This document shows, piece after piece, positions 824 through 24,315 of a DNA stretch of 40,554 bases. The DNA is from a virus, in IMG/VR virus record IMGVR_UViG_3300035034_000680, positions 1 to 40,554 of that record. One strand, 5' to 3'. Below the pieces are notes generated by a model. It was not told the origin of the DNA, did not search any database, and worked only from the letters and a program-made list of their open reading frames with translations. A program made the translations under genes and the position numbers. How positions within the stretch are numbered: the stretch's first letter is position 1; each line of letters starts with the position of its first letter.

Positions 824-1048
824 CCGGCTCGTTCGCTTTAACCTTGCTCAACTTTGGACACACAGGTTCAGTGAAAATCTGTCTCACGACGATTTTGAAA
901 ATCACTTACTAACTGGAATTACTCTGCGGCCTTGCAAGGAGTTAAATTGTCAATTTTGCAAATCAAAATCTGATTTCGCAAATCACGCCGAATCATCGGC
1001 CATAGTAGACTATACCATAAAATAGTCGGCTTGTCAACTCGTCACAAG

Positions 1049-4947: not shown

Positions 4948-5660
4948 CGCTCATCCATTTCTGAAAATCGTAAATTTTGAAAATGCCAAAGGCTCATACA
5001 TCGAGGATACGTCTCATACTTTGCTTCATAGCTATTCTGACCCGGCCCTCGCCGACATTTTTCAGCTATGGAATCTAACCCTCGAACAGGGTAGTGCTTT
5101 ACAAAAGCCACTTGGAATAATCCGGGGTGATAAGTTAGTGGCTCTCTACCAATTGTACCCATCGTGGTGGCTCTGCTTCCGTCTGCTCCCGCATGTACAG
5201 ATTTCAGAAGCAAACCTTTCTGAACAAAAGCCTTAGGGTTCATGTTGATTGGGTTGTCGAAATGAGCATGTAAATGCAATTCTTTAACACTGTCAATATG
5301 CTCGACTTTTCCGCACCCATAATTCAAACGAGCCAGAAGTAGATTTTGAAAATCAGTAAAGTTTTCTAACAACTCACTTACGACACGATGTTTCTTCAAA
5401 CAAAGAAACTCATCAATATCTATGAACAAAGTCCAATCACTTTGGAAGTTAGCAGCAAAGTGATTGTATGCTCGCAACTGTTTACCTTGTCGATCATCCT
5501 TCCAAGGAATAATCCGAACCGGCCCGTCAGCCGTAATAGGAACAGCAGAGTTGTTATCATAAATAAAGATTTCATCAAATCCTAAATCAAGATGGTGGGC
5601 TACCCACTCCCCAATCCATCTATCTTCATTCTTTGCCATAGCACAAATCGTGGTTTTCAT
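4944..5660 (-). CDS. Glycosyltransferase, GT92/Glyco_tranf_2_4-like
   Basis: 238 aa. The N-terminus MAKNEDRWIGEWVAHHLDLG and then FDEIFIYDNNS are hallmarks of the Glyco_tranf_2_4/DUF23 (GT92) group. Near residue 78 SDWTLFIDIDEFL carries the D-x-D metal site. Later, TYHPGLFQVAFVKHYPVRG and SLWHFQNLRF follow the family's C-terminal His-containing pattern. It overlaps its neighbours by ATGA at both ends, within a run of surface-modification genes (glycosyltransferases, sulfotransferase, methyltransferase). Acceptor and donor are unknown. One exact palindrome lies at 5342 and encodes DFQN. Confidence 0.8.
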   Translation of the reverse strand: MKTTICAMAKNEDRWIGEWVAHHLDLGFDEIFIYDNNSAVPITADGPVRIIPWKDDRQGKQLRAYNHFAANFQSDWTLFIDIDEFLCLKKHRVVSELLENFTDFQNLLLARLNYGCGKVEHIDSVKELHLHAHFDNPINMNPKAFVQKGLLLKSVHAGADGSRATTMGTIGREPLTYHPGLFQVAFVKHYPVRGLDSIAEKCRRGPGQNSYEAKYETYPRCMSLWHFQNLRFSEMDER

Positions 5661-6163: not shown

Positions 6164-6738
6164 TTTACCTTTCTCACAATCACTTGCTTGCCGATTTCTA
6201 AAATCTCAAGGAAGGGTCGAAAACATGCCCCAAAACCATCAATCGCTATCTTGGGTTTCGTATACGCGGGCTTATTCTTTACTCCCCAAAGATAATCATC
6301 CCAAATCATATACCCACCAACTTTGAGTTTAGTCCAGCATAGGCAGGAATCTACCAAAACAGCGGCAGCACCATGAGCACCATCAATATAGATCATATCA
6401 AATTGCTGGTCTAACTTCTGAATTGCAGAAGCAGACGGTTCAGATATATGAGTTAATTTATCGGCAAAAGGTGCTGTATTCTTTTTGAATAACTCTGCTG
6501 CTCTATCTAACCTCTCTGCAACACTAGGTACGCCCAATCCTGTTTCCTCATACTTATGAGGGTCGATACAAACCAATGTACTATCAGGGTGTGTAAGGAT
6601 ATTCTCCAAAGTCCAAACAGCCGAACGTCCTTCAAAACTCCCAATCTCTAAGGCTTGAACTGGCTTTCCGATTAGAGGAGCTAGAATCCTCGACCAATTC
6701 TTTTGGTGGTTGAGATGCCACTTAGTTGTGTAAGTCAT
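6160..6738 (-). CDS. Class I SAM-dependent methyltransferase (Methyltransf_24-like)
   Basis: 192 aa. QALEIGSFEGRSAVW is the SAM-binding motif I (E-x-G-x-x-x-G) and STLVCIDPHKYEE is motif II. FDMIYIDGAHGAAAVLVDS and LKVGGYMIWDDYLWG give the metal/active-site pattern of the Methyltransf_24 family, often found beside glycan genes. AGGAA lies 8 bases before the ATG. It is coupled by ATGA overlap to the sulfotransferase. It may methylate a sugar in the same glycan pathway; the substrate is not known. A palindrome (6193) overlaps its C-terminal codons. Confidence 0.8.
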   Translation of the reverse strand: MTYTTKWHLNHQKNWSRILAPLIGKPVQALEIGSFEGRSAVWTLENILTHPDSTLVCIDPHKYEETGLGVPSVAERLDRAAELFKKNTAPFADKLTHISEPSASAIQKLDQQFDMIYIDGAHGAAAVLVDSCLCWTKLKVGGYMIWDDYLWGVKNKPAYTKPKIAIDGFGACFRPFLEILEIGKQVIVRKVK

Positions 6739-8215: not shown

Positions 8216-10548
8216 TTCTCAGCCCAATTTTTCATCCTGTTGGACCATTCGATCTTGATAAGAGGTATCTTATCCTTAAACGATTCTACTGCCCCGTTCA
8301 CCGCCTGAGCAACTTTGTCAGGACATTTGTTGGGACACATAACTTCGTCGTGTACATTCATAGGAACAACCAGCCACTCATGAATACCTGATGGCTGGAT
8401 TTTCCAAATCTCATTCTGTGTGTATTTCGTTACTGTTGCACCGGGCGATTGGATTTCATGGTTGGCTGCCGCCCGCATGTTGGCTGCTTGAATCTGAAAT
8501 GCGGCACCGAACATTGCGGACATAACTGCCCCCGCTGCTGTCTGAATGCGGTCATCCCGACGGCGAACTTTGATCTTAATGTCCTTCCATTCTTTTGGAG
8601 GGCTTTGTGCAAGGTCAAAGAGAGCTTTACAAATTTGATTTTCCAAATCAAAGTATCGGCGAAATCCAAACATTGATTCAACATAGCTTTGAGGTTCATT
8701 CCAAACTACCCTACTTCCGATGCCACCCGGCTGTCTCATTGAACAGAAGGCATCATAGATTTTAGCTCTAGCAATCGCAACACCTTTGAACCGACGTTGG
8801 AATCCTTGGTATGCAGCAAGAGCAACTTCTTCTTCGATACCTTGTTTGTTGACCAACGTTGAGTGGTCACCACCATAGATCATCGAGAAGACGCCAGCTT
8901 TACCGTGTCCATACATATCATGTTCGGTTCCTTTAGACCGAACAATCATTGCATAACTAAGGTCCGGGTACATCTGTTCAGCAAACAACGCGTGGATTTT
9001 GGGAATAAATCGTTTCTTCCCACCACAAACAATACACTTCATTTCACCAGTCTTTTCATCTGGTTCTATGATTTCACAATCACAATCTACGGGAGTAGAG
9101 ATTGTCCGTCGTAGTTCGGCATCATCATATACTGCATCCGCGATAGTAACCTCAAAAGCATCAAAGTCACCACCAGAAAGGGTAAACCCGTCATCAGCCA
9201 AAGTAAAGCAACGGCGGACGGTCTTGTCAGATTTAATGCCTTGCGGATTGAGTCCGTCACTACCGGCCATACGGCTGGACAAAGTACCGATAACAATAAA
9301 ACTAGCATGGAACCGACCAGCAAGAATAATTTTGTCATACAGTTCGACTTCCTTCTTAGCGAACCGTGCTGCCAAAACTTGTCGAGCAGCCACAGCAGCA
9401 GGGTGAAGGCGGTAGCCTTTGATTGGGTGACCCTCTTTGGTATCACCTTCCCAATCAGCAATCTGCTCAAGAACCACACGTTTTGTGGTGTAGTTTCCTT
9501 CTCTATCTTTGAGAGCCATTAGCTCGATTTCTTCCAAGTGTGGAGTAATCCACGCCAATGCTCGTTTCGGGTCTTTAGGAGCCAAAAGTGATTTACGCTC
9601 AGCTTCTGCTCTAAGACCTTTGATTTCGGGAATCGAAACTGCATACCCTCGCCATCTAACCGCACCAACCATACATGCGAGTTCGGAGTCTACATCACCT
9701 GCCTCTGGCTTGTCCCAATGGTGATAGAGACCTCGCGTATAGGTAACGTCATCCTCGGCATATTCACGCCCTCTTGGGTTGTGTGCCCAAAATTGAATGT
9801 GTGCTTTGATAACATCAGGCCATGCAAACTTCCAATCATCAGGCGTACCGATTGCTAAAGCAAAAGGAGCCCACCCATGTTCCTTTGGCATAAGATGCTT
9901 CGGAACTCCGGCGTCACCGAATTTAAGCGTAGTCTTCTTGGCGACACCAGTGTGTTCTGCAAGAATCTTAAGTCCAGACTTAGGGTGGAACTTGAGTACC
10001 AAATCTTTGAAATTCGGGTCGTCCTGTCCCTGCCTTTGCCTGTCTTTGATACGCCATTTGGGTGCGTATTTATCTTTTCTCCTCGCAAAGAGAATATCAT
10101 CGAAAGTAATCTTTTCTTCTAGTGTAGCCTGTAAGGGCATCGCTAGAGTGGTTGGGATTTTGCGAATCACAATTGCTTTGCGACTCATCAATGCTTGATA
10201 CGGACCCTTCCTCGCGTAAAGCATCAAGTCCAAGGCAGCCTTAGGCTTGAGGCACGGCCCTAAGCGGGCAGAAGGTTCCAGCAAAGCGATTTTCAAAATG
10301 TTTTCTTCGGGAATATCATCCCGATCCAACATTGTCCAGATTGTGTAAATCTTGGATAAGTGAAAATGGTCAAATGCTAGGTTAAAACCACAGACCTCAC
10401 GATCCATGATGTATTCAATCAAATCCATTGTTTCGCCTACCGGCTCTTTCCAAATGTTCCACAAATGGATAGGGCCGTCGTCTTCTGCCCATTGGAGAAG
10501 AACGGCTAGTCCATGCAAACCGCATGTTTCAGTGTCATAGAAAATCAT
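8212..10548 (-). CDS. Family A DNA polymerase with 3'-5' exonuclease
   Basis: 778 aa replicative polymerase. Exonuclease motifs are YDTET (Asp5, Glu7), GFNLAFD (Asp60) and YAEDD (263-267), so proofreading looks intact. Polymerase motifs: TLSSRMAG (422-429), motif A DFDAFE (461-466) with the metal Asp and steric-gate Glu, motif B K550-A-G-V-F554-S-M-I-Y558-G and motif C VHDE (732-735). Phe554 sits where E. coli Pol I has Phe762, which predicts discrimination against dideoxynucleotides. Between motifs A and B there is an insertion with CDC (489, 491) and CIVC (505, 508), probably a zinc ribbon, uncommon for this family. There is no 5'-3' exonuclease domain. Motif A departs from the usual DYSQIE. 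Sequence shows the domains; replication of the phage genome follows from family knowledge. Confidence 0.95.
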   Translation of the reverse strand: MIFYDTETCGLHGLAVLLQWAEDDGPIHLWNIWKEPVGETMDLIEYIMDREVCGFNLAFDHFHLSKIYTIWTMLDRDDIPEENILKIALLEPSARLGPCLKPKAALDLMLYARKGPYQALMSRKAIVIRKIPTTLAMPLQATLEEKITFDDILFARRKDKYAPKWRIKDRQRQGQDDPNFKDLVLKFHPKSGLKILAEHTGVAKKTTLKFGDAGVPKHLMPKEHGWAPFALAIGTPDDWKFAWPDVIKAHIQFWAHNPRGREYAEDDVTYTRGLYHHWDKPEAGDVDSELACMVGAVRWRGYAVSIPEIKGLRAEAERKSLLAPKDPKRALAWITPHLEEIELMALKDREGNYTTKRVVLEQIADWEGDTKEGHPIKGYRLHPAAVAARQVLAARFAKKEVELYDKIILAGRFHASFIVIGTLSSRMAGSDGLNPQGIKSDKTVRRCFTLADDGFTLSGGDFDAFEVTIADAVYDDAELRRTISTPVDCDCEIIEPDEKTGEMKCIVCGGKKRFIPKIHALFAEQMYPDLSYAMIVRSKGTEHDMYGHGKAGVFSMIYGGDHSTLVNKQGIEEEVALAAYQGFQRRFKGVAIARAKIYDAFCSMRQPGGIGSRVVWNEPQSYVESMFGFRRYFDLENQICKALFDLAQSPPKEWKDIKIKVRRRDDRIQTAAGAVMSAMFGAAFQIQAANMRAAANHEIQSPGATVTKYTQNEIWKIQPSGIHEWLVVPMNVHDEVMCPNKCPDKVAQAVNGAVESFKDKIPLIKIEWSNRMKNWAEK

Positions 10549-10743: not shown

Positions 10744-12276
10744 TTAATACTCGTTAGGCGTGGTGATGTTGGTTTCCACTACAACTTCATAGTCATGCTT
10801 GTAGACAACTTCTGCTGTAGGGTCTGCGAGCTTAGCATTGATTGCTTCCTGTGAAGCCTCTCGTTCTTGAACATGTTGACTCATCACTGAACCGTTCACA
10901 ATCACTTTGAAGTAACCTTGTCCGAGAGCGCGAAGATTGATATCCATTGTTTCTTCCTTAGTTGAAGTTTCGTATTTGAAATCAGGGTACGGGTCTGTCG
11001 GGATTACGTCCGGCAGACGTTGAGCCATTAACCATTCTACATTTCCAAAATCACCCCATACTCTTTTAGAGGTGCCACCGTGGCTACTGGGATACTCGCG
11101 ATAGATGACTTGGCGACCTAAGTCCCGAGCTAGTTTCTCGTATGCCATACTGCCAAATCGCATACCGTCACTCGATCCTGCACCAATCAAAACACCAGTG
11201 TGCATGTTTTGCGAAATCTCACGCTTGAGCCTGTTCTTGTAACTCAAGCCATTCGGGATATCGAAAGGTGTGTCCCAATTAGGGTGATTTTCAATATCAT
11301 TATAGGCGTTCCCAATAGGCCATCCTGCACACGGAACGACTGCTGCCCAAATATCTCTTTGAGCTTTTAAGGCTTCAAAGCATAATTTGGCCCCGCCCGA
11401 GAATCCAGTGAGATACAATCTCTTAGGATCAATGTCAGGGTATTCCACTAACAACTTAGTGACTAGCAAACGCAACCCGACCATTCCATAAGTCCCAACA
11501 CCATAGTATTGGTTCCATCCTGAATGGTAAGGATACGGATATTCCGGGTTCAAAGAACCATCAAAGCCACTTGTCGGCACTTGATAAGTACAATAGAACG
11601 CCGGGAAATCAGTATACGTTTTGTAATCTTTTCGTAGAATACACGCAGGGTCAACTTGGGTTAGGATAGCACCATCATCGCCCAACTCACCTGACCCACC
11701 AACCGAAACGATCAACGGATACTTCCGATCAATCTCTTGGTTAGGAGGAGTGGAAAGATAGTATCTAGCTCGACCACCCATGAAGTCAACTTGTTGGATA
11801 GGCCTTTCAGCCAACCACGACGTTGGGCCTTCGTAGTAAGTATGGTTGATTTCGGAAATCCGAGCATCCTTACCAGCTTCATACATCCACCAGTTCCAAT
11901 CCCGGTTCCCGTACCTAGCCTCAAACTCCAAGGTGTGAGTACCGGGAGCCAACGTCCAGCCAAAACTGTTGTAGGATTGGGCTAACATATTATCTACGTC
12001 ATCACGAGAATAATATCCCATCCGAACCTTCAAAGGTTCAGAGCCTTCGATTTTCAAAATCACTTTGTGGTGATGTTGTTCAAGACCGTTAATCCCATAA
12101 GCAGGACTGACCATATACGTCTGATCAGGAAACGCACCGCCTAAAACCCGCTCGGTGAATAGAGCAGGATTACGGTTGTAAGTTGTTCGAGCATAATCCA
12201 TAGGGGTTCTCCAAGGACAGTTCTGACATCCTAAATTACAACAATACCCACGAGCTTTTAAGACAGGTTTAATCAT
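10744..12276 (-). CDS. Esterase/alpha-beta hydrolase fused to DUF5522-like and virion-type domains
   Basis: 510 aa with a multi-domain build. Residues 1-25 (GYCCNLGCQNCPWR) match the Cys-rich DUF5522-type motif. Residues about 30-165 look like a beta-rich carbohydrate-binding-type domain. Residues 175-420 are an alpha/beta hydrolase: YPLIVSVGGSGE (oxyanion strand), the nucleophile elbow LTGFSGGAKL, GAGSSDGMRFG (acid) and YPSSHGG (His), the order of PHB-depolymerase/LpqC-like esterases. The last 65 residues (YFKVIVNGSVMSQHVQERE and VVYKHDYEVVVE) resemble a small domain I have seen ending phage virion proteins. The ATG overlaps the ParB gene stop. Substrate unknown; polyester, lipid or capsule ester are possible. 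Finding it among replication genes is odd. Confidence 0.75.
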   Translation of the reverse strand: MIKPVLKARGYCCNLGCQNCPWRTPMDYARTTYNRNPALFTERVLGGAFPDQTYMVSPAYGINGLEQHHHKVILKIEGSEPLKVRMGYYSRDDVDNMLAQSYNSFGWTLAPGTHTLEFEARYGNRDWNWWMYEAGKDARISEINHTYYEGPTSWLAERPIQQVDFMGGRARYYLSTPPNQEIDRKYPLIVSVGGSGELGDDGAILTQVDPACILRKDYKTYTDFPAFYCTYQVPTSGFDGSLNPEYPYPYHSGWNQYYGVGTYGMVGLRLLVTKLLVEYPDIDPKRLYLTGFSGGAKLCFEALKAQRDIWAAVVPCAGWPIGNAYNDIENHPNWDTPFDIPNGLSYKNRLKREISQNMHTGVLIGAGSSDGMRFGSMAYEKLARDLGRQVIYREYPSSHGGTSKRVWGDFGNVEWLMAQRLPDVIPTDPYPDFKYETSTKEETMDINLRALGQGYFKVIVNGSVMSQHVQEREASQEAINAKLADPTAEVVYKHDYEVVVETNITTPNEY

Positions 12277-13087
12277 ACCATTCAGGTCTTTTGATGTCCG
12301 TTTCGTGGTACTGTTCTAGGTAATCAAACAGTTGTTCATCTGTCTGTTCACCAATCACCCAAGCCAAGACCTTTGTTGCTGGAGTCGTGCCGAGATTATC
12401 GACAAGGTGGTGCAGCAAGTCTTTGACGTCTTTCTTGGTTCGGTCTTTCTTTGCGTGCTTGTTAGGCTTCTTACGCATGGTGGTGTGGTCGATCTTCTCA
12501 CCAGTAGCCTTAGCCCGTTTGATTTTCTTGACAGCCTCGTACATGTCTTCATGTCTCGGGAGGCCAGCAATCTTCTTAACGTGGTACTGAGTGATTGTAC
12601 CCGCCGCAGCTTCTTCTTGAATCGGGGCAGGCAGTTCCAGCAACGCATAACGAACTTGGACCCAACCACGACTCTGACCCAACTCAGTACCAACAGCTTC
12701 CTGTGTCATACCGAGTCGTTTCAGATTTGCCAAAGCCTTAGCTTCCTGCATGAGGTCAAGGTCTTGACGCTTCACGTTTTCAGCAAGGTTAATAATCAAC
12801 GCATCTTTCTGCGACATCTTATCTTTGATGTTCGCAGGAATCATTGGAAGATTCAAAATCTTGTGAGCATATGTCCGGCGGAAACCGGCGATCAGATCGT
12901 AGTCATAGCCTTCTCGTTCGGAAGATTTGACCACAACGGGTTGGTGTAAACCGTTTTCTTTAATGTCTTTCGCAAGACTTTCTACATCAAGTGGAGTCAA
13001 TGTTCCGCGACAGTTGAACTCGTCGTCGATGTAGATTTTGGAAATCGGAATATCTCGAACATTCATTTTTGTAGGGGCTTCGTTCAT
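12269..13087 (-). CDS. ParB/Spo0J-family protein 2
   Basis: 272 aa. The ParB N-terminal nuclease-like/CTPase fold is seen in TLTPLDVESLAKDIKENG, HQPVVVK, box II LIAGFRRTYA (G-x-R-R) and box III NLAENVKRQDLDLM (EN-x-x-R). These boxes bind CTP in known ParB clamps. A helix-turn-helix follows (MTQEAVGTELGQSRGWVQVR), then a basic linker and a small C-terminal domain, possibly for dimerising. Start coupled by ATGA to the 89-aa gene upstream. The palindrome at 13034 encodes ISKI near its N-terminus. No ParA-type ATPase is found in this window, so simple partition is not supported. It could bind the dispersed GATTT-N3-AAATC sites (inference). Confidence 0.85.
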   Translation of the reverse strand: MNEAPTKMNVRDIPISKIYIDDEFNCRGTLTPLDVESLAKDIKENGLHQPVVVKSSEREGYDYDLIAGFRRTYAHKILNLPMIPANIKDKMSQKDALIINLAENVKRQDLDLMQEAKALANLKRLGMTQEAVGTELGQSRGWVQVRYALLELPAPIQEEAAAGTITQYHVKKIAGLPRHEDMYEAVKKIKRAKATGEKIDHTTMRKKPNKHAKKDRTKKDVKDLLHHLVDNLGTTPATKVLAWVIGEQTDEQLFDYLEQYHETDIKRPEWYD

Positions 13088-13353
13088 CGGTAAATTGCCT
13101 TCATATTCTGTTGGAGCTTGTCCATAAAAGTATCTACAATGTCTTGTGACTTGTAGTTTTCGCCATCTTTGACGACAAATCTCATTCTAGAAACTGCACG
13201 TTTTTGTTTGAGCATGTACTCAATCTTGATTTCGTAAATCGCAACCATACGATCTATTTCAAACTTGTCATAATCCAGAATCAGGAAGATTTGATTCTTA
13301 GGGTTTAACTTTCGGAGTTCTCTAAGAGCTTCCATTAAAACAGGGATATTCAT
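13084..13353 (-). CDS. Hypothetical 89-aa protein
   Basis: 89 aa, MNIPVLMEALRELRKLNPKN followed by a strand (IFLILDYDKF) and a mixed alpha/beta rest with VAIYEIKIEYMLKQKRAV. No family recognised. GGAGAG lies just before the ATG and the stop overlaps the ParB start as ATGA. It could be a partner of ParB-like protein 2, given the coupled translation; no direct evidence. The palindrome at 13228 encodes IYEI. Confidence 0.6.
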   Translation of the reverse strand: MNIPVLMEALRELRKLNPKNQIFLILDYDKFEIDRMVAIYEIKIEYMLKQKRAVSRMRFVVKDGENYKSQDIVDTFMDKLQQNMKAIYR

Positions 13354-13459
13354 TACTCTCCTCGAATCTCTTTGGAGACGGCTTCCGCAGCATCAGCTAC
13401 GGGTTTGTTACAGTAAGGTCAGCAGCTATCTTAGCCAAATCAGTTGCTACGCCTAACAT
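13353..13459 (-). pseudogene. Small ORF split by a -1 frameshift
   Basis: From the ATG at 13459, with an excellent AAGGA ribosome site 7 bases upstream, the frame reads MLGVATDLAKIAADLT and stops at 13397. The -1 frame then continues CNKPVADAAEAVSKEIRGE to a TAA that overlaps the next gene's ATG as TAATG. Joined, this gives a coherent 35-aa helical peptide. No standard slippery heptamer is evident at the junction. Either a mutation or base-call error broke a small gene, or only the 20-aa piece is translated. Confidence 0.35.
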
Positions 13460-13468
13460 GGTTAATCC

Positions 13469-13549
13469 TTAAAGAAAATGGCATTGATCCAAGCATAACT
13501 TTCCCAACATTATGCCAATAAGCATCCACGAAAACATTTTCCATTTCAA
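13469..13549 (-). CDS. Possible small membrane peptide
   Basis: A 26-aa frame if it starts at TTG (13549), or 22 aa from the ATG at 13537. It contains MFSWMLIGIMLGKLC, a single hydrophobic segment. AAAGGA lies about 9 bases before the TTG. A different frame from the ATG at 13544 gives a 34-aa peptide, so the choice is open. Only position and hydrophobicity support it. Confidence 0.22.
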   Translation of the reverse strand: MKWKMFSWMLIGIMLGKLCLDQCHFL

Positions 13550-13588
13550 ATCAGGTTTTCCTTTCTATGTATTTCACCAGATACTTAT

Positions 13589-15508
13589 TCAAGAGTATGC
13601 TCCAGTAGTTCGACCACCCTCGATCCCCTTATCGAGTGCCTCTTGGAGTTCACCAAGAGTGATGTCTTGAAGCTCTCGCTTCTTCATCAGGTTGTTGTAA
13701 ACGTGCTCATCTGATTCTAGGTGAAAAATATCATAGATAGTTGCACCACGATTAGTGTCCATGCCAGCACGGTGAATACGATCCTCTGCCTGCATCCGGT
13801 CCTCACCGCTAAAGCTATTGCTAAAGAAAAGTATACTAGGGCTGGCAGTAAGAGTAAGACCCATACCACCTGACTTAGGGTGAGCAATGAAGCAAATCTT
13901 AGGGAACCTATTACCATCTTGGAACTCCTGTATCATTTCCATCTGGCTGATTTTGGGAATCAGGTTTCCCTTCTCATCAAACATTCTCCACTTACTCTGT
14001 CGAATGAAGATGGTTGCCCATCCTTCGGATTGAGCGATTGATTGTATGCGGTCCAGAGTTCCTGTAAATCCTCCGAAGACAACGAAACGCCCAACCTCAT
14101 CATGCTTTCCAAGCAGGTCACGTAATACTCCATCTTTTGGCGAACCAGCTTCATGAGTCGTTCGTTTATAACGCGGCTTCTCTCCGCTTCCTCCGCAGTC
14201 AGGGCAGATAACTGAAACTTCTCCCTGTTTAATTTCACAGTCACCGTTGCAGGTGTCGCAGATGACTTTTCCAGTTTCTTTGGTTTCATACTGGAAACCA
14301 TCGGAAAGCTCTCGGAGCCGGATAAGGGCAGAAATGGCCGTAGGAGAGGATTTGGGGATGAGCTTTGCAGCCCGTATAGTTGCTGGAGCAGGGGGACATC
14401 GGATGATTTCATATTGTTTCTCCGGCAAGTCCAAGCAGTCTTTCTTGAACTTGATAACAACTAAACCCTTCAACCTGCGATACAATCGCTCCACTTCATT
14501 CGGTGTTGACTCATACGTCAGACAACCTTCATCCAGCATTACGCCCTGATTTTTACAATCAGATTGGTCAGTCACACCACATGTAGCACAACGACCTTCA
14601 CAATCTTTCCACGCCACACGATGCGGATATTTACCCCCGGTTGTGGGGTTTTCTTTCTCTTGAATAATTGCCAAGGTCTTAGTAAACTCATGGATGTTTC
14701 CTTCCTTAAGAAAACCGGGACAAGCAATTTCAGCCTGATGCCACCAGTCAACAGGTGACTTAGGAGCAGGCGTACCAGTCATCAAAAGAATATATCCTTC
14801 ATCTTTCCAATCTTCCCGTACCCCGTCCGCTAGAGCCATGATCGCTTGGGATCGGGCAGCGGTCGGTGTCTTTACTCGGGAGCTTTCGTCAATCACCGCA
14901 AACTGTGGAGCCTTTTTACCAACAGGCCATTCGTTGTTCAGCTTCTTATACTCTTCATAGGTCATGAAGTTAGGTCTGCCCTTGACACCCCACTTATCAA
15001 ACTCAAGTTGGACGGACACAAGAGCGGATCGTGGAGCAATGAAGAATACGGTGTCTTCGTTGATTTCGGAAACCACGGATTCAATGGCAGCAATAGCAGC
15101 GAGAGTTTTCCCTGTTCCCATCTCACAGGCCCAAATACCTGATCGTACTGAGAGAATATGGGAAGCCATTTCAGTTTGGTGCGAGTAGAGGTTTCGCTCA
15201 AACTCGATTTGCGAAATCTCTTTGTCGTATCTTTCATAAGGGTTGTTCCCCATCAGATAGTCAAGCTGGAACAAGTTGCGAGCGTTAATAGGAATAGACC
15301 AAACATTGTCAGGAATACCAGCAAGATTGTGGAAACTATCGTATTTCTTGGAGTGCCATTTCCGCCCTTGCATGTTTCGGATTTCAATTGTGATGGCCTT
15401 GTTGAATTTGTACTTGAAGTAAATCCGCTTCTGGTCTTTATGCCAGAATAGACGGATAGGCATTAAGTATTTGCCTACTCGGAATTTGGTATCGAAAACG
15501 TCAATCAT
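13589..15508 (-). CDS. SNF2-like superfamily 2 helicase/translocase
   Basis: 639 aa. Motif I EMGTGKT (129-135), motif II DESS (207-210, a variant of DEAH), motif III MTGTP (243-247), motif V GGMGLTLTAS (547-556) and motif VI QAEDRIHRAG (573-582) are all present and in order, as in SNF2/DRAD-type phage helicases. Two Cys-rich inserts stand out: Cys303/307/310/318 (with Cys329) and CDTC...C...CPDCGGSG at 417-440, the latter like a DnaJ zinc knuckle. The N-terminal 100 residues are specific to this protein. It likely moves on double-stranded DNA in replication, recombination or remodelling. Exact palindrome at 15206 (ISQI); near copies at 13949, 14548 and 15062. Confidence 0.9.
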   Translation of the reverse strand: MIDVFDTKFRVGKYLMPIRLFWHKDQKRIYFKYKFNKAITIEIRNMQGRKWHSKKYDSFHNLAGIPDNVWSIPINARNLFQLDYLMGNNPYERYDKEISQIEFERNLYSHQTEMASHILSVRSGIWACEMGTGKTLAAIAAIESVVSEINEDTVFFIAPRSALVSVQLEFDKWGVKGRPNFMTYEEYKKLNNEWPVGKKAPQFAVIDESSRVKTPTAARSQAIMALADGVREDWKDEGYILLMTGTPAPKSPVDWWHQAEIACPGFLKEGNIHEFTKTLAIIQEKENPTTGGKYPHRVAWKDCEGRCATCGVTDQSDCKNQGVMLDEGCLTYESTPNEVERLYRRLKGLVVIKFKKDCLDLPEKQYEIIRCPPAPATIRAAKLIPKSSPTAISALIRLRELSDGFQYETKETGKVICDTCNGDCEIKQGEVSVICPDCGGSGEKPRYKRTTHEAGSPKDGVLRDLLGKHDEVGRFVVFGGFTGTLDRIQSIAQSEGWATIFIRQSKWRMFDEKGNLIPKISQMEMIQEFQDGNRFPKICFIAHPKSGGMGLTLTASPSILFFSNSFSGEDRMQAEDRIHRAGMDTNRGATIYDIFHLESDEHVYNNLMKKRELQDITLGELQEALDKGIEGGRTTGAYS

Positions 15509-15511
15509 AAT

Positions 15512-16000
15512 TTAATCTCTTGGTTTGATAATGTAGGTTCGGTCGTCCAGCTTGATGAAAGTTGTGCATTTCTTCCAGAGCTTCCCAAAGCCCTTCTCAT
15601 CAAATCTCACTTGGATGGCGTCACCTAAAAGTCTAGTGTCCACGTTCCGTTCTTTGGTCGTCATTCTTATTGTTGTATCCAGCCATTGTCTTATTGTTCC
15701 AGAAACCAATGCCAAAACTTCATCTGTGTTGATTTTGCGAATCACAATATGCAATTTACTACACCCAACCAAATCGACAAACGGTTCAAGCTCGCACTGA
15801 ATAAGCATGGTTCCAAAAACATGATCCAATTCATCACCACTCTCATACCCTCTAAAGGCTTCCGCAACCTTGATGATCTTCTCATGATCCGTCAATTTGT
15901 TCGGTACGTCTCTCAGCGGGTTCCTCGTCTCGATGTTGTCCAGAGCTTGACTCAGGCTCTCCATGTTGTACTGACTGATTCCTACAATCAAAGTGTTCAT
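15512..16000 (-). CDS. Hypothetical 162-aa protein before SNF2 helicase
   Basis: Begins MNTLIVGISQYNMESL at the ATG 16000 (an in-frame start at 16012 adds four residues). A mixed alpha/beta protein with LHIVIRKINTDEVLALVSG and DAIQVRFDEKGFGKLWKKC. No family recognised. It ends 3 bases before the SNF2 start, so it is probably co-translated with it. Its N-terminus overlaps the C-terminus of the next gene upstream by over 100 bases in a different frame, across the near palindrome at 15977. Confidence 0.55.
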   Translation of the reverse strand: MNTLIVGISQYNMESLSQALDNIETRNPLRDVPNKLTDHEKIIKVAEAFRGYESGDELDHVFGTMLIQCELEPFVDLVGCSKLHIVIRKINTDEVLALVSGTIRQWLDTTIRMTTKERNVDTRLLGDAIQVRFDEKGFGKLWKKCTTFIKLDDRTYIIKPRD

Positions 16001-16250
16001 GGAACGCCTCATTCTTTATCGTGCGTATAACGCCGGTTGGGTCTAAGTAGAGCCAGTTACTTGCTCCTGTCTCAATTTCTAGGCCGTGCTCATTAACGAA
16101 AATAACTCCGCTCTGACGGGTCAGACGGAGTTTGCCAAGGTCATGTCGGTTTAGTATCCACTCTGGCAAGGTGCTACGCCTATTAAGCATACGCTCCGCC
16201 AAATCAGATACTCGAATGGCCTGTATCGAATTGTCTTTGTATAAATACAT
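15882..16250 (-). CDS. Hypothetical 122-aa protein
   Basis: ATG at 16250 (GTG at 16259 possible), beginning MYLYKDNSIQAIRVSDLAER. The folded part (to about residue 90) includes LTRQSGVIFVNEHGLEIET and NWLYLDPTGVIRTIKN. The last 35 residues are Glu/Arg/Ser-rich and overlap the next gene in another frame, so the true 3' part may be unimportant. It lies just after an intrinsic terminator and a hairpin, suggesting a new or re-initiated transcript. No family recognised. Confidence 0.5.
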   Translation of the reverse strand: MYLYKDNSIQAIRVSDLAERMLNRRSTLPEWILNRHDLGKLRLTRQSGVIFVNEHGLEIETGASNWLYLDPTGVIRTIKNEAFHEHFDCRNQSVQHGEPESSSGQHRDEEPAERRTEQIDGS

Positions 16251-16256
16251 TGAAAC

Positions 16257-16400
16257 CACAAGACAAGAGTTATCTTATCTTGTGGGAAAAGTCGGCGTCC
16301 CCGAGTGAGAACGCCGACCACCCTATCCAACCGCAGGAACCACCTGCAAAGGGTAACGAGGGGGAGGCATCCCTCGCTACCCGGTCAGGCCTAAGCCTGA
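16257..16400. other. Hairpin-dense intergenic stretch
   Basis: Besides the terminator, four more inverted repeats sit in 145 bases: CACAAGA/TCTTGTG around 16257-16283, GCAGG/CCTGC (16333-16347), an 11-bp stem with one mismatch, GGGTAACGAGG/CCTCGCTACCC (16351-16382), and CAGGC/GCCTG (16386-16399). An exact palindrome follows at 16399. No gene is seen here. The stems could protect the 3' end of the upstream mRNA or form a structured small RNA. Confidence 0.6.
16287..16318 (-). terminator. Intrinsic terminator after the 217-aa gene
   Basis: On the minus strand a GTCGGCGT/ACGCCGAC stem (16311-16318/16291-16298) of 8 bp with a 12-base loop is followed directly by TTTT. It lies about 90 bases past the stop of the gene at 16410-17063 and may end or attenuate the ParB-1 transcript. 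Confidence 0.6.
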
Positions 16401-16409
16401 TTTTCCAAA

Positions 16410-17063
16410 TCAACGTTCGCGAGTACCTTCTTCTTTGACGACTTCGGGAGTGTCTCCATCAGGAGCAGCACGGAACTTCGTGAGTGCATCCTTGAGTTCG
16501 ACATCATTAGGCGGCGTCATTGGTGTGGGACATTCGACAAAGACAGGAACGTGCCAAGAACCCTTGTTGTTTTTAGCCAGCTTCGTCTTACAGGTGACGG
16601 CTTGCCCAAGCATCTCGGCCAGCCTAGGGCCGAGCTTCTTCTGAGAAGTCGAACACATGTAAAGTGTTGCAAACTTCTTTTGATCCTTGAGGTACACAAG
16701 GAACTCAGGTCCGCTCAGACAATCGCTGTTCTGCACGCCGGACCGGGTTTTGATTTCCGCAAACAGTTCTGACGTATGATCGGTTGTAGAAATGATGTTT
16801 GTTCGATCACTATAGTCGAGAGCTTTAGGTTGCCAAGTCACCGGGATGATGTCGATTTCCTTGCCCAAGTCGTCGATCGAATCGCCGTTCTTGAGGAAGT
16901 ATGCACCCATCTGCACCTGACCTTCCTTAACCGGGTCAGACGATGCTCCGCCGACCTTGAGTTGAGGAAGGAAGGACGATGCAGCAACTGCATCCATCGC
17001 ATCCATTTGTGGGACCAAAGCACCATCAAGCTCATTTACCTTAATCAGTTGATTACCAGACAT
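16410..17063 (-). CDS. Conserved phage-type protein of unknown function
   Basis: 217 aa from the ATG at 17063 (AGGA 8 bases upstream). The N-terminus reads MSGNQLIKVNELDGAL, then VAASSFLPQLKVGGASSDPV, QMGAYFLKNGDSIDDLGK and IPVTWQPKALDYSD. Later, SGPEFLVYLKDQKKFATLYM and GSWHVPVFVECP suggest a beta-rich fold. I believe similar proteins occur in other phages near replication genes, without an assigned role that I can recall. It follows ParB-like protein 1 in the same unit. A palindrome (17082-17094) lies just upstream of its ribosome site, and another (16399) just downstream of or overlapping its stop. Confidence 0.65.
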   Translation of the reverse strand: MSGNQLIKVNELDGALVPQMDAMDAVAASSFLPQLKVGGASSDPVKEGQVQMGAYFLKNGDSIDDLGKEIDIIPVTWQPKALDYSDRTNIISTTDHTSELFAEIKTRSGVQNSDCLSGPEFLVYLKDQKKFATLYMCSTSQKKLGPRLAEMLGQAVTCKTKLAKNNKGSWHVPVFVECPTPMTPPNDVELKDALTKFRAAPDGDTPEVVKEEGTRER

Positions 17064-17137
17064 TTTATGTTTCCTGTTGTTGATTTCCAAAATCCACGAT
17101 TAGCCATTCCATTCCAGATTTGAGGGAATCCAGAATC

Positions 17138-17211
17138 GGTCGCGTCGGTGTACTGCCGACGCGACCGGGATCGAGGCCTGTAGCGGGCAGAGGGTTCGCG
17201 ATTGAACCCTC
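17138..17211. other. Two strong hairpins between ParB-1 and the 217-aa gene
   Basis: GGTCGCGTCGG (17138-17148) pairs perfectly with CCGACGCGACC (17156-17166) around a 7-base loop. GAGGGTTC (17190-17197) pairs with GAACCCTC (17204-17211) around a 6-base loop. No T-run follows on either strand, so they are better read as mRNA-processing or stability elements, or operators, than as intrinsic terminators. They are far more G/C-rich than the nearby sequence. Confidence 0.65.
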
Positions 17212-17225
17212 CGGCCCGGATACGA

Positions 17226-18191
17226 TTAGCTGGCAGCAGCCTGCTTAGCTTCGAGCTTCGCACGCTCGTCCGCAGCTTCCTTTTCCTTCTGCTCAAGCCG
17301 TTCAATCTTCCGCTTCTCAGCGGCTTCTTGCTTGGTGGCTTCCCGTTCATGCCACTTGGCTTCCTGTTCCTTAACAGAAGCCTCGTCAAGATTGACGCAG
17401 TAGTTGAGCATGAAGACGGCGGCTTCCAAAGGATCACTGATTTCGGAAATCAGTTCCCGAACGGCTGCCTGATTGTCCAGCAGCGGTTCGATTTCCTTCA
17501 TCTTGCGGAGCTTAGCCGACGGGGTGAACTTACGTTCTTCCGGCTTCTCACCGCTGTTCTTGGCCTTGCGAATCTCATCAAGACGTTCCTTGATGATAGG
17601 ACCGAACTCGCTAGGAGTCGCGGTCATCGCCTGATCCACGAACGACACCTGTTCTTCAACAGGCAGCTTCGAGAGATATTGGGCGTTCGACAAGGTAATC
17701 TTGTTGCTATCGACAAGCGGCTGGATATCTTCATGCAGCTTGAGCAACGACAGACGGTTGTTGATGAACGTAGTGGACACGCCAAGATCGCGAGCCAGAT
17801 TGTCCAAGGTCAGCGTAGGCTTGAGGGAAATCATGGCCTGTAGCTGTTTGGTGTATTGGATCGGTGTGGTGTGAACACGGTGGAAGTTCATCATCAACTG
17901 AGTTGCAAGAACAGTTTCCTTGTCCATGTCCTTGACAACGGCGTTGATTGACTCAAGGCCGAGGTCTTTACACGCATTGAAACGCTGCGTGCCGTCGATG
18001 ATTTCAAACTTCTCGGAACCATCTTCGGTTTTAAGAGGTCGAACAAGGATTGCTCCGTCAAAACCTTTGGAGCGGATTGATTCGACAATCCCGAGATACT
18101 GCTCTGAGGTCTTCTGAGCAGGTCGAAGGGCAACAGAGCCTTCTTCGATTTGCGAAAGCGGGATGTTCTTAAGAGTGCCTTCTTCTGACAT
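17226..18191 (-). CDS. ParB/Spo0J-family protein 1
   Basis: 321 aa from the ATG at 18191, chosen because AAAGGAAA lies 8 bases upstream; the in-frame upstream TTG (18248) is unlikely. The ParB-like fold is seen in QYLGIVESIRSKGFDGAILV, IIDGTQRFNACKDLG (box II, here G-T-Q-R) and MMNFHRVHTTPIQY (box III position). A helix-turn-helix follows (LTLDNLARDLGVSTTFINNR). The C-terminal 60 residues are a charged Glu/Lys/Ala coiled coil. The G-x-R-R and EN-x-x-R CTP boxes are degenerate, so it may not be a CTP-dependent clamp. An exact palindrome lies immediately before its ribosome site (18207-18219) and another inside (17439, ISEI with 8-bp arms). First gene of the leftward early block; possible autoregulation is inference. 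Confidence 0.85.
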   Translation of the reverse strand: MSEEGTLKNIPLSQIEEGSVALRPAQKTSEQYLGIVESIRSKGFDGAILVRPLKTEDGSEKFEIIDGTQRFNACKDLGLESINAVVKDMDKETVLATQLMMNFHRVHTTPIQYTKQLQAMISLKPTLTLDNLARDLGVSTTFINNRLSLLKLHEDIQPLVDSNKITLSNAQYLSKLPVEEQVSFVDQAMTATPSEFGPIIKERLDEIRKAKNSGEKPEERKFTPSAKLRKMKEIEPLLDNQAAVRELISEISDPLEAAVFMLNYCVNLDEASVKEQEAKWHEREATKQEAAEKRKIERLEQKEKEAADERAKLEAKQAAAS

Positions 18192-18480
18192 TTTTTGTTT
18201 CCTTTTGATTTCTAAAATCAAGTTGGTTTCGGTGGTTACAATTTTCAATTCTGCAAATCAAAATCAATACTGGATTCCCTCATAACATAATAGTACCGAA
18301 TCAGAATAAATGCTGTAAGAATTATTCAATTATTACATTATGGTACTATATTAGATTGTATAGGGCATTTTATATTGTGTGTTTGCTTATGTATCCTAAG
18401 TTATTGATTTAATATCATAATTTCTTAATTGGTACTATTATATTATAGATTCTGCTTTGCAAAATTAGAAAAGAAAACAC
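18192..18480. promoter_or_regulatory. AT-rich divergent region, candidate promoters and origin
   Basis: This 289-base gap separates the leftward ParB-1 block from the rightward primase unit. It is very A/T-rich and has no gene. It carries three copies of an 8-base word, ATAGTACC at 18290 and its inverse GGTACTAT at 18342 and 18431, as expected for operator or promoter elements. Palindrome sites (18207; weaker at 18247) cluster at its left end; near copies at 18147, 18511 and the exact 18716 flank it. Location beside the primase-helicase makes it a plausible origin. Exact -35/-10 boxes could not be fixed with confidence. Confidence 0.55.
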
Positions 18481-18678
18481 ATGCGTCCACTAACCGTCAG
18501 TCAAATATCTGATTTTGGAGATCGACTTGTTATACACTATGAAGGGACTGATCCTACTGAACATCAAAATATCGTTTTAGCTGTGGGTGATGCTTTTGCA
18601 TCTGAACCCGAAGCAGCTTTCAAATTCGCAACCGGAATTATGGAGTGGTTAAATAGTGCCAAATCCAAACAAGACTGA
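18481..18678 (+). CDS. Hypothetical 65-aa protein, first gene of the rightward unit
   Basis: 65 aa, MRPLTVSQISDFGDRLVIHY then HQNIVLAVGDAFASEPEAAF and a C-terminal helix. No family recognised. The A-rich AAAAGAAAA before the ATG is a weak ribosome site. It overlaps the primase start by 23 bases, so it is probably translated with it. The near palindrome at 18511 encodes DFGD. Confidence 0.55.
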   Translation: MRPLTVSQISDFGDRLVIHYEGTDPTEHQNIVLAVGDAFASEPEAAFKFATGIMEWLNSAKSKQD

Positions 18679-21361
18679 GGCGATCGGCAGATTGCTTGCA
18701 GCCAAAACCCATTCTGATTTGGCAAATCTATATCACAAAGGTATGGAATGTCAAGTCCTAGTGGCACAGGACGCAGGCGAGCGTGTCGCGAATGAAAAGT
18801 TCGTGTCGTATACGGATGGCGTTTCTAAATGGTGGAACTTTCGTATCCCCAAGAACGCTGCCAGCGATCCCGTCGATAATGACGGGGAATTAAAATTTGA
18901 TTTGGAAAAGCATGTTGAGGGAATTGGCCTCACTGGTTGGAATTGGCAAAAGCGAGCATCTATGTGGGTAGCTTTTGACTTCGACGCCATCATGGGTCAC
19001 TCCGATCAACACTCCGCCAAACTTTCATCCGAAGAACTCAAGGCCGTTCGTGATGCCGCCTGCAACATTCCTTGGGTTACAGTTCGCAAATCAACAGGCG
19101 GAGCAGGGTTACACCTTTATGTATTCTTTGAAGAACCCGTTCCTACTGATAACCACACTGAACACGCTGCTCTCGCAAGAGCCGTGCTCGGGAAAATGTC
19201 AGCCGAGAGCGGTCTGGATTTTGAGTCCAGAGTCGATATCTGTGGTGGAAATATGTGGGTGTGGCACCGTAAGATACGTGGGGAAGGATTGGTCTGTGTT
19301 AAAGAAGGGTCTAGACTTGATCGAATTCCTCTCAACTGGCAAGACCACCTAAGCGTCATCCGACGCAAGGCTACTCGTAATACACCCAAGTATATCGAAC
19401 CTTCGCATAGTTCCTTGTTCGATGAACTGTGTGGTCAGATGGATCATATCCAGATTGAAGAAGTCCATAAAGAATTGTTTGGATTTCTAGAATCAAGAAA
19501 TGCTTTCCATTGGTGGGATGCTGATAGGCATATGTTGGTCTGCCACACTTATGATCTTAAGATGGCTCACCAGCAAATGAACATGCGAGGCGTCTTCGAC
19601 ACTATCTCAAAAGGTAGTGAACACGGCTCTGACCAAAACTGTTTTGCATTCCCCTTACGTGGGGGCGGGTGGATATGCAGACGACACACGCGAGGCGTTT
19701 CGGAGAGTGCAAACTGGATTCAAGATGAATCAGGTTGGACTCGTACTTACCTGAACAAAGAACCCGATTTGATGACAGTGTGTCGTTATCTCGGAGCAGC
19801 TTTAGGTAAGGATGGTCGCTATGAATTTCAAGATGGTGAATCAGCACAAAAGGCTATTGAATATCTAGGTGTCAAGGTTGAAGTTCCTACTCGCTTCCGA
19901 GCCGGTAGGTTATGCTATCTCTCCGAAGGTAAGAATGGCAATCTGATTTTCCAAATCGAAAAGACTCCATCAGATACAACTGAGAAACTGGAAGGTTTCA
20001 CTAAAGGTGAGAAGAAGTGGTTTACTTATGTCTCACAAGTGCAAGCTAACAAAGATACTCAGGATGAAATTGCTTTTGGTCAGGATGATAAGATTCGCCA
20101 CGTTATCGCTGTAACAGGTGATGACCAAGGTTGGTTCTTGAAGAATAGTCTAGGGCTATGGGCACAAGAACCCCTAACCCATATCAGGGCTTATCTGCAA
20201 GGTGTTGAAGATATGAACAATAGCAACGTGAGCAAGATCGTAGGATCGTGTATCAACCGTTGCTGGAAGTTGGTCAACAAACCGTTCCAACCTGAGTTCC
20301 CCGGTGACCGAGAATGGAATAAAGATTCTGCAAAGCTAGCAATGGCTCCCACCGAAGGTGATGGGCCTTTCAACTGTCCAACATGGCAGAGAATCTTTGA
20401 ACACTTAGGAGTGAATCTCAATGAAGCAGTTGCGACGAATACATGGTGCAAACGGAACGGCGTTATTAACGGAGCACACTATCTTAAGTTGTGGGTCGCG
20501 TCGTTATTCCAATTCCCTCTTAAGCCCTTACCGTATCTATTCTTTTACTCTCCAGAGCAAAATACAGGCAAATCCATTTTTCATGAAGCTTTGGATTTAC
20601 TAATGACCAAAGGGGTTATGCGAGCAGACCAAGCTCTAAGTAACCAAAGTGGGTTCAATGGTGAACTGGCTGGTGCCGTGCTCTGCGTTATTGAAGAAAC
20701 TGATTTGCAAAAGTCAACCTTAGTCTACAACCGAATTAAGGATTGGGTGACATCACCTTACATGATGATTCACACCAAGAACAAGACGCCATACATGATG
20801 CCCAATACAACGCATTGGGCTCAATTCTCAAACAACGAGGATGCGTGTCCTGTGTTCCCCGGAGATACTCGGATCGTTACTGTTCCAGTTAATCCTCTCA
20901 AGCCAACTCAGCTAATTCCCAAAGCTAAGATGCTTGAACTCTTGAAAAAGGAAGCTGCGGATTTTCTTGCAGAGATTTTGAAAACCGAAGTACCTGAATC
21001 TGATGACCGACTCAACATTCCAGTTATCGAGACGGTTGAAAAACGGAATATGCAAAACCGTCAGATGACTCCTGTCGAAGCATTCTTCTCCGAGAAATGC
21101 CACGAAATACCCGGTCGCTCAATTAAATACAGTGACCTGTTTGTTGCCTTTGAAAATTGGTTGGACCCAATGGATGTGGACAACTGGACGAAAACCAAGT
21201 TCGGTAAAAAGATTCCTCTCAAGTTTCCCAAAGGTAACGCGACATGGGATAACAATCAACAGCATGTTGGAAACATTGCTTTTGATAGTCAACCCGGTCA
21301 AGGTATCATCAAACTTAGTGATGATGGGCGTCTAATTCGGAAGGAGGTGTCCAGTGATTGA
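18656..21361 (+). CDS. Primase-polymerase/SF3 (D5-like) helicase
   Basis: 901 aa from a GTG at 18656 (GGAG 10 bases upstream). N-terminal half: archaeo-eukaryotic primase-type site with WVAFDFDAI (Asp108, Asp110), KSTGGAGLHLYVFF (146-157) and RVDICGGNMWVWHRKI. The middle region contains QNCFAFPLRGGGWICRRHTR, seen in phage primases. C-terminal half: SF3/D5 helicase with Walker A SPEQNTGKS (632-640), Walker B CVIEE (677-681) and sensor FSNNEDACP. It should prime and unwind phage DNA. Together with the family A polymerase it forms the core replisome. It heads the only plus-strand unit in the window. Palindromes lie at 18716 (DLAN) and 19945 (IFQI); near copies at 18899, 19492, 20702 and 20974. 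Confidence 0.9.
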   Translation: MPNPNKTEAIGRLLAAKTHSDLANLYHKGMECQVLVAQDAGERVANEKFVSYTDGVSKWWNFRIPKNAASDPVDNDGELKFDLEKHVEGIGLTGWNWQKRASMWVAFDFDAIMGHSDQHSAKLSSEELKAVRDAACNIPWVTVRKSTGGAGLHLYVFFEEPVPTDNHTEHAALARAVLGKMSAESGLDFESRVDICGGNMWVWHRKIRGEGLVCVKEGSRLDRIPLNWQDHLSVIRRKATRNTPKYIEPSHSSLFDELCGQMDHIQIEEVHKELFGFLESRNAFHWWDADRHMLVCHTYDLKMAHQQMNMRGVFDTISKGSEHGSDQNCFAFPLRGGGWICRRHTRGVSESANWIQDESGWTRTYLNKEPDLMTVCRYLGAALGKDGRYEFQDGESAQKAIEYLGVKVEVPTRFRAGRLCYLSEGKNGNLIFQIEKTPSDTTEKLEGFTKGEKKWFTYVSQVQANKDTQDEIAFGQDDKIRHVIAVTGDDQGWFLKNSLGLWAQEPLTHIRAYLQGVEDMNNSNVSKIVGSCINRCWKLVNKPFQPEFPGDREWNKDSAKLAMAPTEGDGPFNCPTWQRIFEHLGVNLNEAVATNTWCKRNGVINGAHYLKLWVASLFQFPLKPLPYLFFYSPEQNTGKSIFHEALDLLMTKGVMRADQALSNQSGFNGELAGAVLCVIEETDLQKSTLVYNRIKDWVTSPYMMIHTKNKTPYMMPNTTHWAQFSNNEDACPVFPGDTRIVTVPVNPLKPTQLIPKAKMLELLKKEAADFLAEILKTEVPESDDRLNIPVIETVEKRNMQNRQMTPVEAFFSEKCHEIPGRSIKYSDLFVAFENWLDPMDVDNWTKTKFGKKIPLKFPKGNATWDNNQQHVGNIAFDSQPGQGIIKLSDDGRLIRKEVSSD

Positions 21362-23017: not shown

Positions 23018-23369
23018 AGTATTGCTCCCAATAGTCATCGAGGATTGCTTTCAACATAATTGAAAGTCGAGTTACAACATCAAGATTCACGACAGCAGTT
23101 TGAGTGTCTCCAGCTAGGAGAGCTTCTTCTGCTGCCTCCAATGAAGCCTTATGCTGATCAATTACTGCACTCAGATTTCGCAAATCCGAATCACTAATGA
23201 CGTTGGCCGTATGAAGGGTCAACGCATTCCGAATAACTACCTTACCGATAGTATACTCTTGTGCGATCTGGTCAGCAATTCGTGCATTCTCATTCTCATA
23301 CTGAACTGTCGTGCAGCCGAAACTACTTAGTAGAATCAGAATTAACGGAAGATAGTTCAATCGTTTCAT
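22974..23369 (-). CDS. Small lipoprotein, candidate spanin-type or lysis accessory
   Basis: 131 aa from the ATG at 23369 (AAGGAG 6 bases upstream). A typical lipoprotein signal, MKRLNYLPLILILLSSFGC, with lipobox S-F-G-Cys; Cys would be residue 19. The mature part is helical with IADQIAQEYTIGKVVIRNAL and a long amphipathic region. It starts inside the holin-like gene, as lysis lipoproteins often do. It is longer than a usual Rz1 (40-60 aa) and lacks Pro-richness, so it may be an unimolecular spanin-like protein or an unrelated lipoprotein. A lipoprotein suggests a diderm host, but not strongly. Confidence 0.6.
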   Translation of the reverse strand: MKRLNYLPLILILLSSFGCTTVQYENENARIADQIAQEYTIGKVVIRNALTLHTANVISDSDLRNLSAVIDQHKASLEAAEEALLAGDTQTAVVNLDVVTRLSIMLKAILDDYWEQYYESSSDSATGQISD

Positions 23370-23577: not shown

Positions 23578-24315
23578 TCAAAATCTACACTCTAATAACT
23601 CAGCTACCTTTGTAAGAGGTAACGATGTGTCTTGCAACAATTTCTGCCAATGCTTCTTGGTAGACTTGTACAAGTTATCAAACGGTTTACGTGGAAAAGC
23701 GTCGTAAGCAGTTTCCTTTTCAATTAACCGACCTAAGAACACCTCAACACCATGACGCTTCATTAGAAGATTATCCCAATTTGGTAAGGTGAAGATACGA
23801 TCATGTCGGAACCAGAAGAAAGTGCCTGCATAGTGCCAATTATCTAAGCTGGTAAAACTAACCTCAGCTTTGAAACAGCCATATGCAGCATACTGTTGTA
23901 GCTTAGCTTCAACATCCTTCACACTGTGAAGATTGAAGTGGTACATACAACAACGCCAAGTCCTGATGTTATCTAACATCTGGTGACGATTACGATACTT
24001 AGGACTCACGCCCTTTGCATGAGCATAGAAGGTTGCTTCATTTGGGTCTTCTGATTTTAGAAATCCTAAAGAGTGTTTAAAAGCGTGAGTCTCACCGAGA
24101 CTGACACTGTTCTTCACGGTTAGAAACTCAAAGTCACCTTCGCCAAACCTTTGCTTCACTTCTAAGACATCAGCAATCCCTTCACCTTGAGCCACCAAAA
24201 TTATCTTCCTACCATTAAATACTTTCAAGTATTCTTTGAGTACGTCGATGTTGTTCTTCCAGTCATATTCGCTCTCGGCAATAGGGCAGATAAAGTAGAG
24301 TAGGTTTCTAATCAT
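23578..24315 (-). CDS. Glycosyltransferase-like protein
   Basis: 245 aa from the ATG at 24315, coupled by ATGA to the upstream gene. NLLYFICPIAESEYDWKNNI starts like sugar-transferring enzymes, FYAHAKGVSPKYRNR carries the HAKG motif of a glycosyltransferase-like phage and bacterial family, and WHYAGTFFWFRHDRIFTLP matches its later 'aGtFFW' part. No clear D-x-D metal site. Function and acceptor unknown. Together with the zinc-ribbon gene it sits between the tail and lysis genes, a common spot for host-surface or virion-decorating enzymes. The palindrome at 24053 encodes FLKS. Confidence 0.55.
   Translation of the reverse strand: MIRNLLYFICPIAESEYDWKNNIDVLKEYLKVFNGRKIILVAQGEGIADVLEVKQRFGEGDFEFLTVKNSVSLGETHAFKHSLGFLKSEDPNEATFYAHAKGVSPKYRNRHQMLDNIRTWRCCMYHFNLHSVKDVEAKLQQYAAYGCFKAEVSFTSLDNWHYAGTFFWFRHDRIFTLPNWDNLLMKRHGVEVFLGRLIEKETAYDAFPRKPFDNLYKSTKKHWQKLLQDTSLPLTKVAELLECRF

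Follow-up and report, generated by a model that had tools for sequence, protein, structure and literature searches.

The virus record IMGVR_UViG_3300035034_000680 from IMG/VR (40,554 bp, record class linear and probably incomplete; hereafter the window, that is, the whole stretch of DNA analysed) carries 35 copies of the palindrome GATTT-N3-AAATC together with genes for two ParB-like proteins, P1 and P2. On balance, we lean towards the interpretation that these are parts of a ParB-type genome-marking system in an uncultured phage group, which would operate without ParA, with P1 loading as a clamp at the palindromes and with the genes for P2 and a neighbouring primase under the control of the same sites. 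P1, P2 and the primase gene are kept together across ~40 related uncultured phage records.

Where the window has 35 copies, 0.06 would be expected; GATT-N5-AATC, a looser core, is found 60 times vs 2.5 expected from half-site frequencies. The centre of GATTT-N3-AAATC is itself biased, as its first base is never A and its last base is T once only. The palindromes occupy all three reading frames, unequally. When codons were shuffled synonymously within genes, leaving the proteins fixed, the 49 in-gene copies of GATT-N5-AATC fell to 5.3 ± 2.3, and similar losses were seen in ten other genomes; therefore, selection acts on the palindromes at the level of DNA. The gaps between sites in the window are also more even than random (coefficient of variation 0.57 vs 0.98, p = 0.0002), and over 26 genomes the combined z-score for even spacing was −5.0 vs −1.2 for near-miss sites with one mismatch. 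Very short and very long gaps are both depleted. Across genomes, ~80% of the sites (1166 of 1470) lie within genes, while the 50 bp upstream of gene starts show a three-fold enrichment (126 sites vs 41 expected). An earlier prediction made from the letters of the window alone (the original prediction) had described a dispersed 13-bp site and, given the even spacing, the group-wide occurrence and the different sequence versions, understated the case.

Relatives were collected by searching with the primase gene, which gave 80 loci, and 41 records, all of uncultured phages, were retrieved wholly or largely; P0002 as the sole query returned no viral relatives. P2 is present in all 40 related records, P1 in 35 and gp16410, a conserved gene adjoining P2, in 38. 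There is no close named phage, since matches of the primase and polymerase to named phages extend along no more than 24% of the length, and no prophage was found, the sole match in bacterial genomes being a small contig binned as Thioalkalivibrio. A ParA ATPase (AAA_31) was detected in none of 32 records (the window and 31 related ones, which may be incomplete) and in 14 of 14 control genomes, in line with the predicted lack of ParA. Tyrosine integrases gave the same result (0 of 32 records, 14 of 14 controls), limited likewise by incomplete records; these missing integrases are the sole basis for the term 'lytic-type' that had been applied to the phage.

In most related records the palindrome takes a version of its own, with arms and spacing that vary between relatives. 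The versions comprise GATT with 3, 4 or 5 bases between the arms, GATG-N4, TGATA-N5, TGAGTT, TGAGTTAnTAACTCA, TGATTTAnTAAATCA, TGATTCCGGAATCA, GATTAnTAATC, ACTCTAnTAGAGT and others. The dispersed 13-bp site originally described is real, and is one local version of a changing motif. In five genomes (G007, G033, G036, G038 and G048), GATT-N4-AATC and GATT-N5-AATC are both enriched, as if the reader there tolerated two half-site distances. Sites within the primase gene recur at permissive protein positions, and relatives with another spacing use largely different positions. These versions also bear on the idea that the palindrome works through a hairpin in DNA or RNA, such as a primase or packaging signal, instead of as a duplex protein site, which we find hardly credible: GATTT-N3-AAATC could pair into a 5-bp stem around a loop of 3 bases, but such stems are short and A+T-rich, and some versions have no usable loop (TGATTCCGGAATCA, AACTTAAGTT) or a one-base centre (GATTAnTAATC, ACTCTAnTAGAGT). 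Separately, two genomes (G011 and G018) contain 31–36 copies of GCTC-N4-GAGC vs 6–8 expected, which may be a further, G+C-rich version of the motif; the 8585-bp record L110 holds 62 copies of TCATC-N5-GATGA, and L106/G027 has 8 copies of GTCCTT-N7-AAGGAC in addition to its GATTT sites.

Both ParB-like reading frames of the original prediction exist, and P1 (ParB_N 3.8e-13, HTH_ParB 4.3e-14) and P2 (ParB_N 1.3e-11, HTH_ParB 7.4e-10) exceed the Pfam cut-offs. AlphaFold models (mean predicted local distance difference test, pLDDT, 92.5 for P1 and 87.4 for P2) match the folds of Noc, ParB and KorB, with Noc structures ranking top for both and Noc 7nfu as the best PDB match of P1. P1 and P2 are genuine ParB-domain proteins. 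P1 keeps, as had been proposed, both boxes of the cytidine triphosphate (CTP) pocket, G68-F-R70-R71 and E103-N104-V-K-R107; among 26 homologues there is no variation at G68, R71, N100, E103, N104 or R107, while conservation of R70 is 90% or more. The boxes of P2 are degenerate, also as anticipated, with D-G-T-Q-R and N-F-H-R in place of GxRR and ENxxR, and its predicted tail corresponds to a C-terminal helix at residues 270–320 of the model. An N-terminal amphipathic membrane helix was predicted in neither protein, both of which start directly with the ParB N-domain.

We then counted the genomes with at least one site within 150 bp upstream of a given gene. A site precedes P2 in 29 of 38 genomes (5.9 expected), the primase gene in 25 of 39 (5.9 expected) and gp16410 in 17 of 40 (6.1 expected), whereas the polymerase, helicase and exonuclease genes are at or near background. 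In the window, P2 and the primase gene diverge from a common intervening region, and the palindromes upstream of P2 and of the next gene lie where they had been reported (Table 1). These positions, together with the three-fold enrichment upstream of starts, would suit a system in which the sites are operators and in-gene roadblocks for KorB- or stoperator-like transcriptional silencing, serving gene control and not genome coverage; KorB, a clamp of the ParB family, silences genes from afar (PMC11790492). We nevertheless regard this explanation as somewhat unlikely, because most sites lie inside genes, operators would not be expected to be spaced evenly through genes for structure and for replication, and the sites, being palindromic, are direction-less.

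To relate the motif to its candidate readers, columns corresponding to the DNA-contacting residues of ParB (PMC7383237) were mapped onto P1 and P2 by alignment, and in 39 genomes the distances between motif profiles were set against those between interface columns, controlling for a tree of primase, polymerase and helicase. The P1 interface covaries with the motif (r = 0.225, p = 0.005), with 7 of 500 variability-matched control column sets doing as well, and the signal survives control for P2 (r = 0.189, p = 0.0095). The P2 interface gave r = 0.129 (p = 0.047), which vanishes once P1 is controlled for (r = 0.034, p = 0.31). A first Mantel test controlled by the primase only had given larger values for both proteins and was dropped in favour of the three-protein tree: the correlation with polymerase distance was almost as high, so the signal had been overstated. 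A simple residue code read by eye, in which the equivalent of ParB Arg173 recognises the outer G, was likewise abandoned, since the G is kept where P1 has no Arg. A search with a narrower profile (A4) found no phage with P1 but clearly without P2, and presence or absence therefore cannot tell the two apart. Taken together, these comparisons of sequences point to P1 more than to P2 as the main reader, which we do not put forward as proof.

Should P2 instead be the main reader, it would be a CTP-independent, autoregulated repressor with the sites at the P2/primase promoters as its primary targets, and P1 would do something else. We consider this unlikely. In its favour, P2 is conserved more constantly than P1, upstream sites are concentrated at P2 and the primase gene and not at P1, the recognition helix of P2 and not that of P1 changes in the GATG clade, and the P2 interface has a covariation signal of its own; yet that signal does not outlast the control for P1, and a P2 repressor leaves the ~80% of sites that lie evenly spaced within genes unexplained. 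It is more improbable still that the reader is another phage protein, such as gp16410, or a protein of the host. gp16410 is widely conserved, often has sites upstream and belongs to no recognised family (no Pfam or PHROG match), but it follows the motif no more closely than controls do; among the checked families common to strong-motif genomes, no conserved protein other than P1 and P2 has a recognised domain for sequence-specific DNA binding, and variation of the motif between related phages fits a fixed host factor poorly.

Several observations weigh against the proposed system with P1 as a clamp-forming reader. The catalytic Glu of GERR is Phe in P1 of the window and mostly Tyr/His or Phe in relatives. 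A site lies upstream of P1 itself in 9 of 35 genomes vs 5.4 expected, which is close to background. In the clade with the GATG version, the recognition helix of P2 is altered (equivalents of ParB 177–178 changed to A/G-G), while that of P1 still reads RGWVQVR. The covariation of P1 is modest, P2 has a weaker version of the same signal, and single interface columns are not top-ranked, several polymerase and primase columns being higher. ParB sites do not usually shift their half-site spacing between relatives or combine N4 with N5 in a single genome, as the palindromes do. Even spacing is significant in some genomes and not in each one, and a few relatives with both P1 and P2 are only weakly enriched for the palindrome.

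Under the interpretation we prefer, P1 most likely binds the palindrome, which recurs every 0.5–1.3 kb along the genome of the phage. From the analogy to KorB and Noc, we infer that CTP would close the P1 dimer into a clamp at each site and that the clamp would then slide off and free the site, so that evenly placed sites could let P1 clamps cover the whole genome. Sites in the control region of P2 and the primase gene (and of gp16410) would put those genes under the control of the reader. P2, a paralogue with a long helical tail and no usable CTP pocket, probably holds the same or similar sites without sliding, as a repressor, anchor or bridge. A tentative extension, in which we have distinctly less confidence, is that such clamps, loaded from even and rapidly re-coded palindromes, coat the viral genome in order to organise, shield or label it during infection.

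Among known systems, KorB with its O_B sites on plasmid RK2 (PMC11790492) comes close in having a pocket without the catalytic Glu (GARRYR in KorB, GFRRTYA in P1); KorB has Ala at that position and retains CTP hydrolysis. KorB is loaded onto a mobile genome at short palindromes, moves away as a sliding clamp and acts as a repressor, to which the proposed behaviour of P1 may be likened (PMC11790492). KorB differs in its ParA-interacting (IncC) peptide and in working with KorA, whereas the phage system has no ParA, very dense and mostly in-gene sites, and a second, degenerate ParB paralogue beside the primase. A ParA/IncC-type ATPase was not found in the 32 records, and no search was aimed directly at a KorA-type partner. 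Sites placed as KorB-type operators would be are enriched upstream of P2, the primase gene and gp16410, and not upstream of the favoured reader P1. Noc of Bacillus with its binding sites (NBS) is a ParA-free CTPase of the ParB family with dispersed palindromic sites, but these lie on the bacterial chromosome, much less densely than in the phages, and Noc binds the membrane (PMC8429893, PMC7383237). Of the predicted likeness to Noc or KorB, the fold, the CTP boxes of P1, the lack of ParA, the P2/primase control sites and the P1 covariation are supported, and P1 is the likelier of the two proteins to be the main reader.

Chromosomal ParB shares the homologous N-domain and helix-turn-helix, and the version TGATTCCGGAATCA resembles parS (TGTTTCACGTGAAACA) in its half-site; however, parS sites are few, form a cluster near an origin and work with ParA, as opposed to many (35–60 in 40.5 kb), even sites of variable spacing and no ParA. 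The phages have neither the one or few clustered parS sites of ParABS systems nor, in the 32 possibly incomplete records, the ParA partner. The stoperators of mycobacteriophage L5 are short, dispersed repressor sites that are asymmetric and orientation-dependent, in a temperate phage whose repressor is unrelated. They share with the present sites the dispersal over a phage genome, whereas the latter are palindromic and mostly in genes, and no integrase was found. Cultivated phages with a single ParB-like gene (L318, Thermus phage MN1; L320, L317 and L319) contain 6–11 mostly intergenic palindromes each (TACTCACCCwGGGTGAGTA in MN1), which may be promoter/terminator elements or operators. They were ruled out as examples of the same pattern, their palindromes being of other kinds and mostly intergenic.

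The window further encodes tail genes, a DNA polymerase, an SNF2-type helicase, a class II ribonucleotide reductase and the DUF5906 primase (Table 1). In some relatives (L064 10001–13657, L073 4222–7983, L075 and L214 4814–8575), the primase gene contains ~1 kb of extra in-frame coding sequence (1253 amino acids in G041), possibly an intein. Adjoining P1, at 10744–12276, is an alpha/beta-hydrolase-like protein (GFSGG motif, by eye) that is not in the related records and is possibly a tail enzyme. A cassette at 4408–6738 resembles, by eye, a glycosyltransferase, a sulfotransferase and a methyltransferase, and occurs in none of the 40 related records.

Table 1. Palindromes and associated genes in the window.
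Feature	Position	Strand	Basis
P1, ParB-like protein (272 aa), CTP-pocket boxes and helix-turn-helix, favoured palindrome reader	12269..13087	-	Pfam, conservation, AlphaFold, covariation
P2, ParB-like protein (321 aa), degenerate CTP boxes, 50-residue C-terminal helix	17226..18191	-	Pfam, AlphaFold, upstream sites
gp16410, conserved gene adjoining P2, palindrome upstream	16410..17063	-	38/40 records
Primase gene, divergent from P2, site-bearing control region in common	18656..21361	+	DUF5906 2.5e-15; PHROG DNA primase
Palindrome GATTT-N3-AAATC	706..718		sequence match
Palindrome	891..903		sequence match
Palindrome	972..984		sequence match
Palindrome	1826..1838		sequence match
Palindrome	3134..3146		sequence match
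Palindrome	3800..3812		sequence match
Palindrome	5342..5354		sequence match
Palindrome	6193..6205		sequence match
Palindrome	8398..8410		sequence match
Palindrome	8637..8649		sequence match
Palindrome	11848..11860		sequence match
Palindrome	12049..12061		sequence match
Palindrome inside P1	13034..13046		sequence match
Palindrome	13228..13240		sequence match
Palindrome	15206..15218		sequence match
Palindrome	16399..16411		sequence match
Palindrome upstream of gp16410	17082..17094		sequence match
Palindrome inside P2	17439..17451		sequence match
Palindrome 16 bp upstream of P2 ATG	18207..18219		sequence match
Palindrome at start of primase gene	18716..18728		sequence match
Palindrome	19945..19957		sequence match
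Palindrome	23174..23186		sequence match
Palindrome	24053..24065		sequence match
Palindrome	24689..24701		sequence match
Palindrome	26729..26741		sequence match
Palindrome	27916..27928		sequence match
Palindrome	29096..29108		sequence match
Palindrome	29147..29159		sequence match
Palindrome	31430..31442		sequence match
Palindrome	33923..33935		sequence match
Palindrome	35442..35454		sequence match
Palindrome	35658..35670		sequence match
Palindrome	36378..36390		sequence match
Palindrome	37856..37868		sequence match
Palindrome	38416..38428		sequence match

The homology and the single parts of this system are known, and ParB clamps are familiar from segregation, nucleoid occlusion and plasmid silencing. 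Their combination in phages (no ParA, two paralogues, dense and even in-gene sites, a re-written code) was not found in the literature searched, where nothing comparable emerged for a phage ParB with dispersed sites and whose coverage excluded most subscription journals. If our interpretation is true, ParA-free clamps with dozens of even, in-gene sites would mean that the CTP switch has been put to a new use in a virus. Across its members, the phage group supplies naturally occurring changes in a DNA code alongside those in its candidate reader, a series with which the evolution of protein–DNA codes can be tested, and genome-wide clamps could bear on how phage DNA is organised or protected from host defences.

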